Assembly: GCA_011525665.1 (NCBI GenBank)
Contig: WYAU01000086.1
Location: 1 to 36,717, forward strand
Source of the DNA: Candidatus Brocadia sp.
Lineage (GTDB): Bacteria > Planctomycetota > Brocadiia > Brocadiales > Brocadiaceae
Direction: 5' to 3'
DNA: 36,717 bases
The position numbers were made by a program, and so were the translations under genes. Numbering within the stretch: the first letter of the stretch is position 1; each line of letters begins with the position of its first letter. The notes beneath the pieces are model-generated. The model saw only the letters and a program-made list of their open reading frames with translations. It ran no database searches and was not told the DNA's origin. Below, piece by piece: positions 3,323 through 35,710 of this stretch.

Positions 3323-3678
3323 GGGGGCGAAAGGATTCGACCGGGCAGGTTGAAGTATAGGTGGCGTATTGAGGTGGTCAGGCGGCCTCATTAAAAACCT
3401 GGCAAAAAGATTTAAATGCCGAATATCCAATGGCAATGGCTGCTTAATTAACAGCCACGTTTCATTATCCTTACCTGCGGGGGTAATGAAACGACGACTA
3501 GCAGGTTAGTTCAGTCCTTTTGTCAGGTGGGGGCTGAATGAATCCTTAAACCTGGCTGGTTATCAGAAACCCTGTCTATTGGGGTTCCAGATGACGAGAT
3601 GCAAAAAATAGACTATATACGTAGAAGCCTATGCTGAAATGTCCAGGGACGCGGGTTCAATTCCCGCCGCCTCCACCA
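3323..3678 (+). ncRNA. ssrA: Transfer-messenger RNA (tmRNA)
   Basis: Rescues stalled ribosomes by trans-translation. The 5' end has the hallmark GGGGGCGAAAGGATTCGAC. The 3' end has a T-arm (GCGGG-TTCAATT-CCCGC), then CGCCTCC-ACCA with CCA encoded. GGGGGCG (3323-3329) pairs with CGCCTCC over seven base pairs including one G-U. The tag reading frame ends NAEYPMAMAA, with its TAA at 3445-3447, and the terminal MAA fits known tags (ALAA, AVAA). The resume codon cannot be fixed from sequence alone. Several G/C hairpins between 3450 and 3600 fit the pseudoknots. This is the one-piece form of 356 bases, not a permuted two-piece tmRNA. Confidence 0.96.
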
Positions 3679-21839: not shown

Positions 21840-22334
21840 AGCGTATGGTAAAGGGGATGTGGTTTTTTCCGCATCTTGCGGGAACTATGATGCGCTTCAG
21901 AGCATACCATTAACACGCCCCACGAAAAAATTGACAACCTGCAGCCTAAATTAAAGACAGGTATTATAACGAGTGAATTTTATCAGCAGTTATACGCAAA
22001 TTCAAGTGATAATAGCAATCTTGCGTTTCCACAGATATTAGTTCAGATATCAGGAACAACCGCAACCAAATTGTTTCCATGTGTGAAGTTTTTGTTATCT
22101 CTCTCGTATGTCATTTCACTGCAATAGTTATGACTGTTATTGCAAAATGATAATGAAACAAATTGTTTACAGTAGAGTTTGTGGAATAATTCAAAAAAAT
22201 TTATTTATCATTTATAAGTTGTTTAAATAAAAAAGGTTGTGGCAGTCCTAACGTTTTTTGTTTTTACAGGCACATTGGTTGCGAATGTTATTACCCGAAA
22301 CGAATGTTTATTAAGCGATAAAGGATTGGAAGAG
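21840..22334. other. Divergent region before the receiver-Cache-PAS-narK operon
   Basis: 495 bases without a supported gene. A TGCAATA (22119-22125) and TATTGCA (22137-22143) inverted repeat could be an operator for the plus-strand operon. A TATAAT on the minus strand near 21965 may serve the lipoprotein gene. Confidence 0.45.
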
Positions 22335-22724
22335 ATGATGACAAAAAGGGTACTGATCGTAGATGACGAGGAAGGATACAGAAAGGTTTTGTCAAATTCC
22401 TTAACAGACCTGGGATATGAGACAAAGGCGGTGAATAACGGCTTCGAGGCCCTGGAAGAGATCAAGAGAAGGAGGTATTCGTTTATATTGCTGGATGTAA
22501 AGATGTCGGGCATGGATGGTATCGAATTATTAGAACAATTGCAGGGGATACGACTCAATTCCCATATCGTGATTATTACCGCTTATACGGGAGATGAGGT
22601 TGTGAAAGAGGCTATTAAGAAGGGAGCAAAAAAGGTGATTACAAAGCCTTTCAGTATTGATGATATTGAAGTATGTCTTAATGAATTTTCCGGATTTGAG
22701 GAGAACAATTTACATAACTCGTGA
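22335..22724 (+). CDS. Stand-alone response-regulator receiver protein
   Basis: 129 residues, a CheY-like receiver domain with no output domain. The phosphorylation site is Asp54 (ILLDVKMSG) with acidic pocket Asp10-Asp11, and Thr82 (IITAYT) and Lys104 (ITKPFS) complete the active site. It should therefore accept phosphate and act by protein contact. The ATG pair at 22335/22338 is preceded by GGAAGAG. An open frame to 22239 adds residues unlike a receiver. First gene of a four-gene operon with the heme Cache protein 25 bases downstream. No histidine kinase is in the operon. Confidence 0.92.
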   Translation: MMTKRVLIVDDEEGYRKVLSNSLTDLGYETKAVNNGFEALEEIKRRRYSFILLDVKMSGMDGIELLEQLQGIRLNSHIVIITAYTGDEVVKEAIKKGAKKVITKPFSIDDIEVCLNEFSGFEENNLHNS

Positions 22725-22749
22725 CATTTAGCTCATTAAGAGGTGAAAG

Positions 22750-24162
22750 ATGGTAAGAAAAATATTTAAGGAACGCATTGTAATTGTCATTCTTGCATTT
22801 GTATTTTTTGGATTGCTTCCCCTTGTTTTGTTTCGCCTGCTTGCCTTTCCGAAGGCAAGCGCCGAGTTGAAGCAAGGGGTTCAAAGGAATCTGTGGGGCA
22901 TTGTAAACAAACAAAAAGATCTTCTCACACTGCTATGGGAGGAAAAAAAATCCCATGCCAGAGCCGTTTCTGACACCATTCAAAGTGAATTGCTCATTCA
23001 CGGCGATGAGGACTTTATAAGTCTGGTAAACGGAGTAAATGAACATGAATATCTGAGATTAAAAACGCAGTTAGAGTGCATGAAAGCGGATTATGGCTAT
23101 AAAGGCGTATTTATTTGTGACGCTGCCGGAATAATCCGGTTAACAACGGACAGTGAAAAATCCATGGCAGGTATGAACATCATGAAAGAAAAGCCTTTCA
23201 GGAATGTTCATGAGACATTATACGATGGCAAAACGTATACTTCAGATGTGATCCATTATTCCCTTCACGATGTAAAAGCCGGTGAAGTGGATGATTCACC
23301 TTCCCTTTTTATGTCCTACCCCATCAAAGGCGAAAACCATGATGTAATCGGCGCTGTTTTGTTATGGATGGATACGTCTTTGCTCAATAAGGTAGTGGGT
23401 AATGTTTTATTAGGAAAAACAGGGGAAGCCTATCTGATAAACGAAGATGGCATTATGGTCACCCAATCAAGATTTTCAGACCATATGAAAAACAATAACG
23501 ATACCTGCAGGACGTGTCATAAGGTCGTTGATCCGGAAACCCATATGCTGACGAAGGGGGTGAAAAGATGCATTACGGAAAAACGGAGTGGATACGACCT
23601 GGAAGGATATATGGACTATGATGGAATAAAAGTCGTTGGGGCATGGAGCTGGCTGAAAGATTTGAACATGGGATTAATTGTTGAGATCGATGCGGACGAA
23701 GCCCTTGGCGCCGTTAACAACATTAATTCAATGGTGAAGTCTTTGATGCTGGTGATAATCATTCCGGCATTTGTTATGGCAATCTTACTGTACAGAAAGC
23801 TCGATACCGGATATATGATTAAAGACCTTTCTTTACCAAAAAAGGCATTACTGGGAGCAACAAGCATCATTGTGGTTGGCTTTGTTATAGCCATTCTGGA
23901 CGGTTACGAATTGAGAAAAGAGCGTGGGTATCTTCGGGAACAAAAATATAAAGTATCGAATCCCCTTAATGTATTGGGCTCTATTGTGACACAGAGGGAT
24001 GAGGATTTCATTAAGAGCAACATTTCTAAATTTAAGGAAAAATTTCCCGTTTTGAAATCTGAAAACATGATGAATACGGGGAGCAAGGAGCAGGAAATCG
24101 TAAAAAGCAATAAAAAACAATTACCGGAAAAAACTGTAGCAACGTGGGAACTGAAACCCTGA
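22750..24162 (+). CDS. Membrane Cache-domain sensor with c-type heme site
   Basis: 470 residues. One N-terminal membrane helix (about 10-33) is followed by a periplasmic double-Cache-like domain (about 40-325: GKTGEAYLINEDGIMVTQSR and DLEGYMDYDGIKVVGAWSW are typical). Two further helices lie at about 331-347 and 367-384, then a charged tail to 470. Inside the Cache domain lies CRTCH (C253, C256, H257), a covalent c-heme motif. No HAMP, kinase or methyl-accepting region follows, so it cannot signal alone. An unrelated function cannot be excluded, but heme-based redox or nitrogen-oxide sensing fits the narK context. AGAGGTG ribosome site. Confidence 0.85.
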   Translation: MVRKIFKERIVIVILAFVFFGLLPLVLFRLLAFPKASAELKQGVQRNLWGIVNKQKDLLTLLWEEKKSHARAVSDTIQSELLIHGDEDFISLVNGVNEHEYLRLKTQLECMKADYGYKGVFICDAAGIIRLTTDSEKSMAGMNIMKEKPFRNVHETLYDGKTYTSDVIHYSLHDVKAGEVDDSPSLFMSYPIKGENHDVIGAVLLWMDTSLLNKVVGNVLLGKTGEAYLINEDGIMVTQSRFSDHMKNNNDTCRTCHKVVDPETHMLTKGVKRCITEKRSGYDLEGYMDYDGIKVVGAWSWLKDLNMGLIVEIDADEALGAVNNINSMVKSLMLVIIIPAFVMAILLYRKLDTGYMIKDLSLPKKALLGATSIIVVGFVIAILDGYELRKERGYLREQKYKVSNPLNVLGSIVTQRDEDFIKSNISKFKEKFPVLKSENMMNTGSKEQEIVKSNKKQLPEKTVATWELKP

Positions 24163-24186
24163 AAAATAAAAGAGGAGGTATGAAGT

Positions 24187-24579
24187 ATGCGTAACACCAC
24201 TGTATCAACAAAAGATAAATCCAATGCGCTTCTCAACGTCCAGGATGCAAAAGGATGGTATGAATACGAGCCTTCGTACGACGGCGTCATTACTCATATC
24301 AATACGACGGGGGCGAGGCTTTTTGGCTTTGCGTCGTCTGACGATGTGATCGGGAGAAAAATCAACGAACTCTATGCACATCCTTTTGACCATGAAAAGA
24401 CTTTGTCCATGCTATTCAGGGATGGACAGGCAATGGGGTTTTACACCCTGATGAAAACGAGAAATGGGAAGTTGTTTTTCATAAAGCAATCGAGTTCTCT
24501 GATCACAGAGGGTTTATACAAATGTCCCTTAAAGGTCAAGAGCGAGTTTGAGCCTGTCGAGTCAGCAATTACCGTATAA
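24187..24579 (+). CDS. Small PAS-domain protein
   Basis: 130 residues, a single PAS-like domain at about 25-115: GWYEYEPSYDGVITHINTTG, ARLFGFASSDDVIGRKINEL, then a YTLMKTRNGKLFFIKQSSS strand pair. There is no attached kinase, cyclase or DNA-binding part, so it must act through partners. It has a strong AGAGGAGG ribosome site. It starts 24 bases after the heme sensor gene and 25 bases before narK, so the stoichiometry is likely coupled. The bound cofactor or ligand cannot be read from the sequence. Confidence 0.82.
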   Translation: MRNTTVSTKDKSNALLNVQDAKGWYEYEPSYDGVITHINTTGARLFGFASSDDVIGRKINELYAHPFDHEKTLSMLFRDGQAMGFYTLMKTRNGKLFFIKQSSSLITEGLYKCPLKVKSEFEPVESAITV

Positions 24580-24604
24580 TATTTACATACTTTTGGAGAT
24601 TGTT

Positions 24605-25816
24605 ATGAATGCATCCATAAACACACCTGCACAAACACCCAATGGAAATACCCGGGTGCTGGTACTTGCGACCCTGGCATTTGCAGTATGCTTTGCGGCC
24701 TGGGCGCTGTTTTCGCCTTTAGCAGTTTATTTCAGGGCAGAGTTTAACTTGTCTTCTACAGCAGTGGGACTGTTGCTCGCAACTCCGGTGTTGCTGGGGT
24801 CAATTGCCAGGGTTCCCATCGGCGTTTTAACAGATAAGTTTGGCGGCCGGCGGGTTTTTAGTATCCTGCTTTTGTTTGGATTTTTCCCCCTTTTTCTCGC
24901 AGGTTTTGCACAGAGTTATGGGTTTTTGCTGGTATGCGGGTTTTTTTTCGGTATTATAGGAACTTCTTTTGCCATTGGAATTCCGCAGGTTTCGCAATGG
25001 TATCCCAAAGAAAAGCAGGGTTTGGCATTGGGGATTTATGGCGTAGGAAATGTCGGCTCGGCCGTTGCCACTTTTGGGGCGCCATTTCTTGCAGAATCTC
25101 TCGGCTGGCATAAGGTCTTTATGATCTATTCGGTACCACTGCTCTTCATGGCATTTGTTTACTGGTTTTTCTCTGAAGATGCACCGAAACCTGCGCATAT
25201 AAAGCCACCCACCTTCGGCGATAAACTGAAAGTATATAAGTCTTCCAACTTGATCTGGATCTTTTGCCTCTTCTATTTCATGACCTTTGGTTTTTTTGTC
25301 ACCTTCTCGTTATGGCTGCCGTCTTACTTTCGGGATTTTTATAAATTAACCCCGGTAAAGGCAGGTAGTTTTACGTCTATCTTTGTATTCGCCACGACTT
25401 TTTCCCGTATACTGGGTGGATATCTTGGTGACCGTATACCCGGAAGACGCATCCTTATCGTCCTTTCCCTGGTGATACTCAGCATCCTGGTATTCCTCAA
25501 CCTGAATGTATCGTTAACAACCTCGCTCTCTGTTTTTTATCTGATGGGTATTTGCCTGGGATTAGGTAACGGCGTTTTGTTTAAGCTGGTAGCTGAATAT
25601 TTCCCGAAGGATACAGGCACCGTTGGTGGAATGGTAGGCGCAGCGGGTGGTCTCGGCGGTTTCTTCCTTCCCATTATATTAGGCACAATTAAGGATTATA
25701 CGAATAATTATTCTTTAGGATTTATCTTCGTATCCCTTATTTGTCTGATATGCCTCTCGTTCATGGAAGAAAAAACGATTACAACGATGCACAAAAAAGC
25801 GGCGAATGTTGCGTAG
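24605..25816 (+). CDS. narK: NarK-type nitrate/nitrite transporter (MFS)
   Basis: 403 residues with about 12 membrane helices. Major-facilitator nitrate/nitrite porter. Both nitrate-signature regions are recognisable: GIYGVGNVGSAVATFGAPF and GLGNGVLFKLVAEYFPKDTG, then VGAAGGLGGFFLP. The MFS loop DKFGGRR follows helix 2. The ATG at 24605 has a GGAG site. The open frame further upstream overlaps the PAS gene. Last gene of the receiver-Cache-PAS-narK operon. In an anammox-like cell it would import nitrite or export nitrate. Direction and substrate preference are not shown by sequence. Confidence 0.93.
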   Translation: MNASINTPAQTPNGNTRVLVLATLAFAVCFAAWALFSPLAVYFRAEFNLSSTAVGLLLATPVLLGSIARVPIGVLTDKFGGRRVFSILLLFGFFPLFLAGFAQSYGFLLVCGFFFGIIGTSFAIGIPQVSQWYPKEKQGLALGIYGVGNVGSAVATFGAPFLAESLGWHKVFMIYSVPLLFMAFVYWFFSEDAPKPAHIKPPTFGDKLKVYKSSNLIWIFCLFYFMTFGFFVTFSLWLPSYFRDFYKLTPVKAGSFTSIFVFATTFSRILGGYLGDRIPGRRILIVLSLVILSILVFLNLNVSLTTSLSVFYLMGICLGLGNGVLFKLVAEYFPKDTGTVGGMVGAAGGLGGFFLPIILGTIKDYTNNYSLGFIFVSLICLICLSFMEEKTITTMHKKAANVA

Positions 25817-26086: not shown

Positions 26087-26126
26087 AAAAAATCTTTTCC
26101 CCCTGTACAGGGGGAAAAGATTTTTT
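26087..26126. terminator. Perfect 40-base palindrome acting as bidirectional terminator
   Basis: Two 20-base arms meet at GTAC with no spacer. It is flanked by an A-run on the left and eight T on the right, so it terminates in both directions. It is 270 bases past narK, and probably ends that transcript or shields the TDT gene. Confidence 0.8.
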
Positions 26127-26283: not shown

Positions 26284-27540
26284 ATGGGTATATTGACAAT
26301 AGCAGCCTATTCACTAAATACCCGATGGTTTACAGCCGTCATGGCCACGAGTATGATTGCATCTATAGTTCATTTGTATGGTTATTCGGGAGTTGGGCCA
26401 TACTTTTTTATAGCAAGCCTGGCCATCCTCTTCACGGTGGTTGTTTTTAAGAGTGCACAGACGGTATTATTTTATAAAGACGCCCTGGAAGAAATGATCA
26501 ATCCGGAGAAAACCTTTTATTTCTTTACCATTGTTGGGACTGTAAATTTTGTTGGTATCTGTTTTTCCAGGGTGTTTCATTTCCATACAACGGCTAGTAT
26601 ATGCTGGTATGTTGCCATCGGACTCTGGCTGGGCGTATCGCTCTTTTCGTTTAGCATCTTATTCCTGAACAGGAAATCAGAAGATAGAAAAATCGAAGAT
26701 GTCCTGCACGGGGGGTGGTTTTTTGCCACCGTAGGCGCTCAATCGACGGCCTTGCTGGGAATTATCGTTGCGGAACATGCAACAGGATATGTGCTGTTTA
26801 TCCAGGTATTTTCATTTGCTCTATGGTCGGTGGGTGCGAGTTTATATCTGGTATTTATGGCGCTAATTATTTTAAGACTGATGTTTTACAGGTTTGATAG
26901 CAATGCCGTTCTCTCGCCTTATTGGATGAACATTGGGGCGGCGGCCTTAACGGCAATTACAGGGACGGTTTTTTATCGGCATATACAAGCAGCAGGGGGG
27001 CCTTTTGTTGATTTCCTCCCCTTTTTAAAAGGAATTTCCCTCCTTTTCTGGTCTTTTGGGCTCTGGTGGATGCCGTTCTTGATTATTCTTACCTTGAGAA
27101 AGTTGGTTTACAGCGATGAGTGTCTTTCATTTACCATAGGATACTGGGAGATCGTCTTTGCCCTGGGTTTGTATGCCGACGGCACGATTCACATGGCTGG
27201 CTTATTTGAAGGGCGATACCTTATTGTTATCTCGGTATGTTTTTCTATCGTTTGTATTATCCTTTGGTGCTTTTCATCTGTATTTACTATTGTTCATTTA
27301 GTGAAGTCTTCCCTGTGGGTGCCCGTCAATGATCTGACGATAAATTACGTGATTCCCTATAGCTTTAAACTGCATGGCAGGCTTTTTCAGGTAAAAGAGG
27401 TTGTAAGCGAATGGCTGGATCAAACCATTGAAGGCGTATTAAAGAAACGATATTGCATAATAACCAATACCAATCTTACCTGCGTTATTTCCTACGACAT
27501 GCTGGCGAAAAAATGGTACCTTGATCAGGTTAAGGACTGA
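26284..27540 (+). CDS. TDT/SLAC1-family anion channel-like membrane protein
   Basis: 418 residues with about ten membrane helices. Matches the tellurite-resistance/dicarboxylate transporter (TDT) family that includes TehA and plant SLAC1 anion channels. Landmarks are FATVGAQSTALLG, the Phe/Trp-rich helices and PYWMNIGAAALTAITG. The C-terminal 60 residues (from about 360, KLHGRLFQVKEVVSEWLD on) are an extra soluble tail not typical of TehA. Family members move nitrate, chloride, malate or sulfite, and the nearby narK suggests an inorganic anion. The start has a weak ribosome site. Confidence 0.82.
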   Translation: MGILTIAAYSLNTRWFTAVMATSMIASIVHLYGYSGVGPYFFIASLAILFTVVVFKSAQTVLFYKDALEEMINPEKTFYFFTIVGTVNFVGICFSRVFHFHTTASICWYVAIGLWLGVSLFSFSILFLNRKSEDRKIEDVLHGGWFFATVGAQSTALLGIIVAEHATGYVLFIQVFSFALWSVGASLYLVFMALIILRLMFYRFDSNAVLSPYWMNIGAAALTAITGTVFYRHIQAAGGPFVDFLPFLKGISLLFWSFGLWWMPFLIILTLRKLVYSDECLSFTIGYWEIVFALGLYADGTIHMAGLFEGRYLIVISVCFSIVCIILWCFSSVFTIVHLVKSSLWVPVNDLTINYVIPYSFKLHGRLFQVKEVVSEWLDQTIEGVLKKRYCIITNTNLTCVISYDMLAKKWYLDQVKD

Positions 27541-33042: not shown

Positions 33043-33594
33043 TTACCCGCCGCTTATCTTCATCCACTCCGGCCATTCAGGCCATTTGGGACGGGCAGTT
33101 TCATGGCAGGTAAAACATGCATTTTTCAGCATTGCGTCAAAGCTCTTGTAGGTATCCACAATATTATGTTTTTTGGATGTCTCTGCAACATCTTTTGCGG
33201 CATCGACAACTGTTCTCAGGTATTTTTCAAAATCCTTTTTTACCGCTTGTACATCCTCCGGGTTCTTGGGATCTTTCCCCGTCTCTTTGAACCACTCTCC
33301 AATTTGTCCACCCTCTGGAAAGAAATTTTTCATTATGGCCTGGCTACTCTCTGCAACCGCGTTAGACTCCTTTATCACTGCTTCATGATCACCATCCATT
33401 ATGGCCTCAAGGATTCTGGATGTATGGGAACTGATTACCCTCATTAGTGACCTGGTAGGTGTGGGCTCTGCCGTATGCTTGGACTCAATATCCTTCGCAG
33501 AAAGTATAGTACATTTCCCCCCATGAGAGATACCTATCGTTGCGATAACAAACATGCAACTTGCAATAATACGCATTAGACCGGTCTTTTTCAT
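33043..33594 (-). CDS. Periplasmic cytochrome c'-like protein
   Basis: 183 residues from the ATG at 33594, which has GGAGACAGGAAA upstream. Signal peptide about 1-25. The mature part is an all-helical bundle (about 50-155), and the single heme site CFTCH is near the C-terminus (C160, C163, H164), the arrangement of cytochromes c' and related c556 proteins. These bind NO or CO at a five-coordinate heme or carry electrons. The tail is Trp-rich (KWPEWPEWMK). Next to the NnrS-like gene on the same strand but separated by a terminator, so it has its own transcript. Confidence 0.85.
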   Translation of the reverse strand: MKKTGLMRIIASCMFVIATIGISHGGKCTILSAKDIESKHTAEPTPTRSLMRVISSHTSRILEAIMDGDHEAVIKESNAVAESSQAIMKNFFPEGGQIGEWFKETGKDPKNPEDVQAVKKDFEKYLRTVVDAAKDVAETSKKHNIVDTYKSFDAMLKNACFTCHETARPKWPEWPEWMKISGG

Positions 33595-33690
33595 TTTCCT
33601 GTCTCCTTTCATAAAAAAGATTTTTATTAAAGTAATATACGATTTACTGCCTTGATGCATAACCGTAAAATACCCGTTAGATGTTTCCAC

Positions 33691-33742
33691 AAAAAAAGCC
33701 TTACTGCAAAAGACATTTTTTAAACATCTTCGGCAGTAAGGC
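33691..33742 (-). terminator. Terminator downstream of the NnrS-like gene
   Basis: Ten-base arms (33698-33707 and 33733-33742, GCCTTACTGC/GCAGTAAGGC) with partial inner pairing. In minus-strand direction seven T follow. Ends the NnrS-like transcript before the cytochrome gene. Confidence 0.75.
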
Positions 33743-33877
33743 TATCTTTAGCTTTTTTAACGGTTTAAACAGCTTGGGCGGTTTAAACGACTTATAAAGA
33801 TCCTTTACTTTGCGTCCCCTGATTGCTCAGGGTTTGCCTTTATCGTAATATGTTTTTTAATAATTCTGGCAGAGTTT

Positions 33878-35626
33878 TTATTTTTTTAAAGAAATTTTAT
33901 CGTTAAGGGCTTTGAGGAATTTGTCAATGTCAACACTGTGCATCTTGGTTGCCATTTCTATACTTGCAACCCGTCCCATCGTGTTCCTCAGAACCGGATT
34001 CGCCATCTGACTAAAGCCAAAGTCGAGAAATACCTGCAAAGTTTCCGGGTATTGATCCACAACATCGAAGACCTTGGTGTCCTTTGTTGCTTCAGTCAAC
34101 TTCGTGGTAGATACTGGCTGTTTGATTTCCTGCGCAGTGTTCATTGTTTTCCATAAATTATAGCCAAAAATGCCCAATGCTGCCAGTTCAAACCAACCGG
34201 ATGTTCCCATAATAGCATAATAAAACAAGGACTTCCCACTGCTCGTACCTACCAATATTTGTGAGAATACCCTGAGAAAGCATCCCGTATTCAAAAGGAT
34301 AAAGGTGACGTTTGATAATTTTAAACTATACATGTCAATTCCTTTAAAAGTCGGAATCATTTTCGATGCATAGCCAATAATCATCATTGTGATGAAGCCC
34401 ACCGTGACGGCGTGATTCAGTGATCCGTGAAATCTTTGTTGTAATTCGGAACCGTGCCCTAAGAATGGGATGATAAGAAGGATAACGGAGGTAACAATGA
34501 GCCAGAGATACGCAGTTCGAATGGTCTTGGCGTAACTCCTGTCCATGACAACATCTTGAAGTTCCTGAGTGGACCTTTCGAAGATGCGAAGACCGTAAAT
34601 GAACGTAAAGAGGGCAAAGGCTATAGGGAATACAATAAATTGCGAAAGGCGAAGCGCAACGACACTGTTATTCGCAAAGATGTGGGTAATAAAATAAATG
34701 GGGACGGATATATTCATCACCCAAAAGGTTACATTGACTGCCTTTTCTCTCACGGGCTTGATGTCAAGGAAGGCAAATACCGTCCTGATATTTATGGCAA
34801 AGATGAACATAAACACAAAACCAAAGAGGTAGAGATGCACAAAAGGACTAAAGACGATCCGGGGAATTTCATGCAGGGCATGCTTATATAAATACACGAT
34901 CATCCCAAAATTTATGAAGGCAGAGATGAGAAACCAGATAATTCCTGCTTTAAAAAATTTGTCAAATATGCCCACCTTTTCCCTGCTGGAAAAGATAGTC
35001 TTTAAGATGATAAAAGCAAAGAGACAAATTGAAATGATCTCCAAAATGGAGGATACAGGAATTAAAAACCTGGCGGCACGGAGTGGTAGGGGCTGCACTA
35101 TAATCCTTAGTAAGAGTCCGGCGATGATGAATCCGTAGCAAATGTTCACCAGGTTCCTGTGCTTGAGCTCTGTATTTTTTACCCGTGGAATAATATAGAG
35201 CGCAAAGCCCATAATACAAAGCCCTACCCATCCAAAGAGCTGTGCATGGCCATGCGCCTGGATGAGTGCATAATAAATTGAATGAAAATTTAACTTAATA
35301 GCAATGTAGCTCAGGAGGATAGCGCCAAACGTCACACCCACGGTAAGGGTTAAAACGATCGCTGCCTTTACAAATACCTCATAAACCTTGTCTTCTTCAA
35401 GCTTCGGAATTTCAATATGCTCCCCACCACCCCTTTCAATTGCCTCATTGAGTTCCTTGACAAGGATATCATAATCCACCTCATGCGCCTTGGCAAAAAA
35501 GGCGATCGGTTCGTTGGGGCCGCGAACCCCACCTGCTATGACAAGGTTATATTTCTTGAATACCGTAAGTGTCTCCGGATGAGACTCAATGAGGTCTTTT
35601 ATTATCGTATTTCTGTTTATCTCCAT
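33878..35626 (-). CDS. NnrS-like polytopic protein with DUF1858 domains at both ends
   Basis: 582 residues. An N-terminal DUF1858-type domain (about 1-65, TIIKDLIESHPETLTVFKKY) is followed by about 12 membrane helices (roughly 80-495). These carry His-rich motifs HGHAQLFGW and HHIFxN-like FITHIFANN typical of the NnrS family, linked to NO stress and denitrification. A second DUF1858-like domain is at the C-terminus (about 518-575, DVVDQYPETLQVFLDF). The N-terminal domain lacks the usual paired cysteine. The fusion and duplication are unusual. Heme or copper binding is plausible from the histidines but not shown. Start at 35626. A TTG at 35644 is also open. Confidence 0.82.
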   Translation of the reverse strand: MEINRNTIIKDLIESHPETLTVFKKYNLVIAGGVRGPNEPIAFFAKAHEVDYDILVKELNEAIERGGGEHIEIPKLEEDKVYEVFVKAAIVLTLTVGVTFGAILLSYIAIKLNFHSIYYALIQAHGHAQLFGWVGLCIMGFALYIIPRVKNTELKHRNLVNICYGFIIAGLLLRIIVQPLPLRAARFLIPVSSILEIISICLFAFIILKTIFSSREKVGIFDKFFKAGIIWFLISAFINFGMIVYLYKHALHEIPRIVFSPFVHLYLFGFVFMFIFAINIRTVFAFLDIKPVREKAVNVTFWVMNISVPIYFITHIFANNSVVALRLSQFIVFPIAFALFTFIYGLRIFERSTQELQDVVMDRSYAKTIRTAYLWLIVTSVILLIIPFLGHGSELQQRFHGSLNHAVTVGFITMMIIGYASKMIPTFKGIDMYSLKLSNVTFILLNTGCFLRVFSQILVGTSSGKSLFYYAIMGTSGWFELAALGIFGYNLWKTMNTAQEIKQPVSTTKLTEATKDTKVFDVVDQYPETLQVFLDFGFSQMANPVLRNTMGRVASIEMATKMHSVDIDKFLKALNDKISLKK

Positions 35627-35710
35627 AACTAGGTATCTTAGCAAACTTTACTGAAAATTTTCAAGAAAATTAAAAATTACTTTTTTTGAATGCCAAGGAG
35701 TCAGCAAGTC

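Follow-up and report, generated by a model that had tools for sequence, protein, structure and literature searches.

How might a transporter be controlled by sensory proteins that have no kinase among them? Anaerobic ammonium-oxidizing (anammox) bacteria, which account for a major portion of the nitrogen gas released from the ocean, possess many nitrite, nitrate and ammonium transporters, and the regulation of these transporters is poorly known. In a Candidatus Brocadia contig, analyzed here as a stretch of 36,717 nucleotides (nt; hereafter the window), four genes lie on the plus strand with gaps of 25, 24 and 25 nt between them, and encode a stand-alone receiver, a membrane protein with a Cache domain, a lone PAS protein and a NarK-family transporter (table 1). 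An earlier account made from the letters alone (hereafter the sequence-only reading) had described these genes and gaps, the separation of the modules, the missing kinase and a three-helix Cache protein with the motif CRTCH, all of which were reproduced by our coordinates, Pfam and NCBIfam scans and hydropathy profile. We infer, at about even chances, that these genes form a kinase-free module wedded to NarK, which would tune the transporter locally in the membrane.

Composition and conservation of the NarK cassette

The receiver keeps the acidic pocket and the phospho-acceptor aspartate, threonine and lysine across 24 aligned orthologues, and by these residues appears to be of the phosphorylatable type; the domain scan of its 129 residues detected no output domain, DNA-binding ones included. 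The Cache protein scored 43.9 bits against dCache_1 (PF02743; cut-off 45), sibling Cache proteins reaching 53-132 bits; hydropathy places its helices at residues 10-28, 329-347 and 366-384, and the domain scan detected neither a kinase nor a HAMP domain in it. The nearest kin of the lone PAS protein are the PAS domains of kinase-less Cache-PAS proteins. Membership of the transporter in the NarK/NNP family is indicated by overall similarity (best PDB match E. coli NarK, 1.4e-20), by Arg69 and Arg268, which align with the substrate arginines Arg89 and Arg305 of E. coli NarK and are both conserved, and by the glycine-rich signature GIYGVGNVG at residue 143; against TIGR00886 it scored 250 bits, below the cut-off of 311.7. 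PDB sequence searches with the Cache, PAS and SLAC1 proteins returned zero matches.

No histidine kinase (HisKA plus HATPase) was found when every protein of the cassette was scanned against Pfam and NCBIfam. Nitrate-linked sensors encoded near NarK-type transporters, such as NarX/NarL and NreABC-narT, pair a histidine kinase with a DNA-binding regulator, whereas the window cassette has neither. The equal spacing of the genes was considered as a sign of design and rejected, because the gaps vary among relatives, from overlap to more than 300 nt, and so carry no meaning.

Table 1. Positions of the cassette features in the window, and of the sibling module beside FocA
Feature	Position	Strand	Basis
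Dyad with a T tract after it, resembling a terminator, just upstream of the promoter	22233..22262	+	Sequence
Sigma-54-type promoter AGGCACATTGGTTGCG, GG-N10-GC, TTGC at the -12 end	22268..22283	+	Sequence pattern, conserved position
Stand-alone receiver (CheY-like), 129 residues	22335..22724, ATG start	+	Response_reg 98.1 bits (Pfam)
Cache membrane protein, 470 residues: helix, double-Cache-like outer domain, two further helices, 80-residue tail	22750..24162	+	Pfam, hydropathy
CRTCH, c-type heme attachment motif	23506..23520	+	Sequence; Cache residues 253-257
Lone PAS protein, 130 residues	24187..24579	+	PAS_9 35.2 bits, cut-off 27
NarK-family nitrate/nitrite transporter	24605..25816, ATG start	+	MFS_1 202.6 bits
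Perfect inverted repeat and T run in the NarK-SLAC1 interval, resembling an intrinsic terminator	26089..26124	+	Sequence
Anion channel of the SLAC1/TDT family, last of the five genes in the conserved order	26284..27540	+	PF03595 122.8 bits, cut-off 27.9; synteny
FocA/HPP sibling module	L010 2792-12831; also L161-L175, L180		Conserved in Brocadiaceae

We searched 62 genomes of the order and inspected the neighborhoods of about 55 NarK genes; the resulting counts treat kin genomes as independent, and several of the genomes are fragmented. The order receiver-Cache-PAS-NarK-SLAC1 is conserved in two families, f1 (Brocadiaceae) and f4, which is probably the Scalindua lineage. Across 33 loci of this type in these families, Cache was present in 31, an intact PAS in 28 and an intact receiver in about 25. 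A NarK-type Cache occurred in 32 of the 33 f1 and f4 genomes with NarK and in none of the 17 without it (Fisher test, 1.8e-12, relatedness ignored). At three loci (L094, L095 and L098) receiver and PAS have been lost and the Cache gene is retained beside NarK, with a ratio of nonsynonymous to synonymous substitution (dN/dS) of 0.16-0.18.

The Brocadia genome carries a second Cache-PAS-NarK set elsewhere, 70-73% identical to the first and devoid of receiver and SLAC1. Similar sets were found in nine further genomes. All ten lack both the receiver and the promoter site, and PAS has been lost from two of them. In a third family, f3, NarK is present, at times behind a SLAC1-type gene, and stands without sensory genes, so that these seem to have been added later. 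Five f3 loci (L132, L133, L135, L137 and L139) hold a tandem pair of NarK-type genes, sensory genes being absent, and the SLAC1 gene that follows NarK in f4 is a tandem fusion with two SLAC1 units per reading frame (L126, 8026-10407 on the plus strand, and L127-L129). In the window, the inverted repeat after NarK suggests that SLAC1 may have a transcript of its own in this genome. The cassette was found in none of 392 genomes of the phylum outside the anammox families at E 1e-70, nor, at 1e-45, in members of the class that fall outside the order, and the open-access literature searched contained no description of it.

Cache and NarK being the most stable pair, the Cache protein might be a partner in NarK assembly, stability or sorting, for instance in the choice among the several membranes of anammox cells (PMC7438415), rather than a sensor of activity. 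Such a role, with which the dispensability of heme (see below) would agree, seems to us quite unlikely, given that the double-Cache-like domain and the PAS and receiver linked with it are sensory parts and that most lineages retain the heme motif.

The heme motif of the Cache protein

The CxxCH motif is present in 30 of the 41 NarK-linked Cache orthologues, missing in the other 11, and absent from all 38 other Cache reading frames compared. The stretch that contains it, TCRTCHKVVDPE, can be aligned gap-free to RCALELKLVNPE in a sibling Cache that lacks the motif, suggesting that the motif arose in place, by substitution and not through an inserted cytochrome fragment. In the tree, the ancestor shared by both families already has the motif, and at least four to five lineages have since lost it independently; in one of them it reads CRGSYK where a close relative has CRGCHK. 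The heme-less versions are under purifying selection (dN/dS 0.11-0.18), and in four genomes (G019, G022, G025 and G038) the first cassette is heme-less and the second heme-bearing. Because the motif was lost repeatedly, and because the Cache protein is still selected in species that have lost PAS and receiver, heme would be an optional input and the stable core of the module is Cache with NarK.

The sequence-only reading had given heme an essential part, with the Cache protein sensing nitric oxide (NO), oxygen or redox state and relaying it to NarK through PAS and receiver. The frequency of the motif in these orthologues and its absence from any other Cache protein compared speak for such a sensor, as does NO binding by another heme Cache family (PMC12889525). 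Nevertheless, the module was retained through each of the losses and Cache persists without PAS and receiver, which makes an essential heme very improbable. What stands of the split nitrogen-oxide module proposed there is the conserved, kinase-free set of Cache, PAS, receiver and NarK.

The family just mentioned, sCache_heme (DUF3365/Tll0287, PF11845), consists of NO-binding Cache domains in which CxxCH is 99% conserved (PMC12889525). The window protein resembles it in its extracytoplasmic Cache-type domain, its c-type heme motif and its tie to nitrogen-oxide biology (PMC12889525), but it is double-Cache-like, gave no match to PF11845 at E up to 1, and belongs to a group in which about a quarter of the orthologues have lost CxxCH.

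Domain partition in a sibling module beside FocA

The same genome contains a sibling module (L010) whose gene order, found throughout the Brocadiaceae, is Cache-kinase, AtoC-like sigma-54 activator, HPP, kinase-less Cache-HAMP-PAS3, helix-coiled-coil protein, receiver and FocA. At 14 loci HPP, the Cache-PAS protein, the helix protein and FocA follow one another in order, the receiver being absent in two. The stand-alone helix-coiled-coil protein shares homology with the window Cache protein over the latter's third helix and the residues after it (hhalign 94.5%, E 8e-8), and the PAS of the NarK cassette is nearer to the PAS domains of the FocA-type kinase-less proteins than to other PAS domains of the genome (E 1e-3). 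The NarK and FocA systems are built from parts of the same kinds, namely Cache, PAS, helix and receiver, but the boundaries between genes fall in different places. This re-cutting, our main argument, suggests that the parts act together physically, and the link among Cache, PAS and receiver is strengthened because Cache and PAS are a single protein in the FocA module. In one genome (G017, locus L180), the second NarK cassette continues directly into HPP, Cache-PAS3, the helix protein and FocA.

The FocA_2/HPP nitrite-transport operon of Kuenenia (PMC7438415) and L010 are alike with the window cassette in having a kinase-less Cache, a PAS, a helix protein and a receiver next to a nitrite transporter. 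They differ from it in that Cache-HAMP-PAS3 is one chain without CxxCH, the helix-coiled-coil has its own gene and a kinase/AtoC pair is adjacent. In Kuenenia, focA_2 and the nearby HPP gene are upregulated under nitrite limitation (PMC7438415). A broader proposal, that one kinase-free membrane complex of Cache, PAS, conserved helix and receiver docks on the unrelated transporters NarK (MFS) and FocA (FNT) and controls both post-translationally, is offered tentatively, its chances being somewhat short of even.

Local control of NarK fits the data best because there is neither a kinase nor an output domain, NarK is the sole constant partner, and Cache is kept after PAS and receiver have been lost. 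According to this proposal, the Cache protein would sit in the membrane beside NarK and read nitrogen-oxide or redox state outside the cytoplasm, using heme in many species and none in others, and would alter NarK transport via its membrane helices. PAS and receiver would add a cytoplasmic input, the receiver being phosphorylated by a kinase encoded elsewhere, and sigma-54 would set the dose of the module. Nitrate export with nitrite import has been proposed for anammox NarK (PMC7438415), and the module may balance the one against the other in anammox cells. The NarK sensor set and its FocA/HPP sibling are concrete candidates for the tuning of substrate entry and nitrate exit, and the cassette offers a case in which the possible action of sensory domains on a transporter, with no kinase between them, can be tested.

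Several points weigh against local control. The contact between Cache and NarK is putative. Three helices would leave the Cache tail outside, with only a short loop available to PAS or receiver, and the charges flanking helix 3 do not indicate clearly on which side the tail lies. AlphaFold2 models of six Cache orthologues had a mean predicted local distance difference test (pLDDT) score of 30 and were not used for fold or topology. One genome (G040) has kept receiver and NarK but neither Cache nor PAS, and another (G016) has a NarK-SLAC1 pair without Cache, PAS and receiver.

Two known arrangements, both cited in PMC7438415, offer partial parallels. In KsAmt5 and the other Amt-histidine-kinase fusions of Kuenenia, a nitrogen-substrate transporter family is likewise coupled to anammox signaling, but there the transporter-like sensor itself carries the kinase, whereas here the NarK is an ordinary one, its sensors are proteins of their own and a kinase is lacking. 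GlnK-AmtB is a conserved gene pair of nitrogen transporter and regulator and a model for direct control; in that case a PII protein senses inside the cell, while the corresponding parts here are Cache, PAS and receiver, with a putative contact.

Promoter region, second cassette and other features

The pattern listed in table 1 as a sigma-54-type promoter, which fits the -24/-12 arrangement, precedes the receiver at 26 of 27 loci from the two families, mostly by 55-120 nt, and was found also at two loci where the receiver is lost; its background expectation is 0.0035 per 66-nt stretch. GG, A and TGC are invariant, and the DNA downstream has drifted. By its pattern, its position and the RpoN gene found in the genome, this site is probably a sigma-54-type promoter. 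A genome scan for a regulon with the promoter pattern gave no excess over a reversed-pattern control at two mismatches. The dyad just upstream, which forms a good hairpin in part of f1 only and not in f4, looks like a terminator. An RNA element ahead of the receiver, either riboswitch or attenuator, was considered and rejected, with no Rfam match above gathering and no covarying pairs over both families. At the FocA operon we found no sigma-54 site like that of the cassette, just a conserved TGGTATATCTTTCGTT before HPP. A conserved TGGTATATcTTTCGTT upstream of HPP resembles half a sigma-54 site, without GC (L010, L161-L164, L168, L170, L174 and L175).

The site before the receiver, the SLAC1 gene and the second cassette are absent from the sequence-only reading, whose suggestion that the module acts on NarK rather than on transcription was too strong because a conserved sigma-54-type promoter precedes the cassette. 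Indeed, this promoter, together with the intact phospho-acceptor residues of the receiver and with the full Cache kinases and AtoC-like regulators found beside the FocA module and some NarK cassettes, would agree with a split two-component system that works on transcription only. A kinase encoded elsewhere, such as the Cache-PAS kinase of the FocA operon with its AtoC-like activator, would phosphorylate the receiver, which would drain phosphate or exert feedback on an activator of sigma-54. Cache and PAS would feed this kinase in trans, and NarK would be simply the regulated gene. We consider this scheme the chief alternative to local control, yet a less likely one: the second cassette, without promoter and receiver, still has Cache, PAS and NarK, no kinase is a constant neighbor at NarK loci, and the two narK genes of Kuenenia were unresponsive to nitrite or ammonium limitation (PMC7438415).

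Elsewhere in the window, at 33043-33847 on the minus strand, a gene of the cytochrome c' family (PF01322) is immediately preceded by a cyclic di-GMP (c-di-GMP)-I riboswitch (RF03167, 66.3 bits, gathering 59), so that c-di-GMP may control a possibly NO-binding cytochrome. By the cytochrome c' gene, a 588-residue membrane protein (33878-35644, minus strand) has two DUF1858 domains flanking weak matches to NnrS and COX1, and is possibly NO-related. A transfer-messenger RNA gene (RF00023) occupies 3323-3678 on the plus strand.
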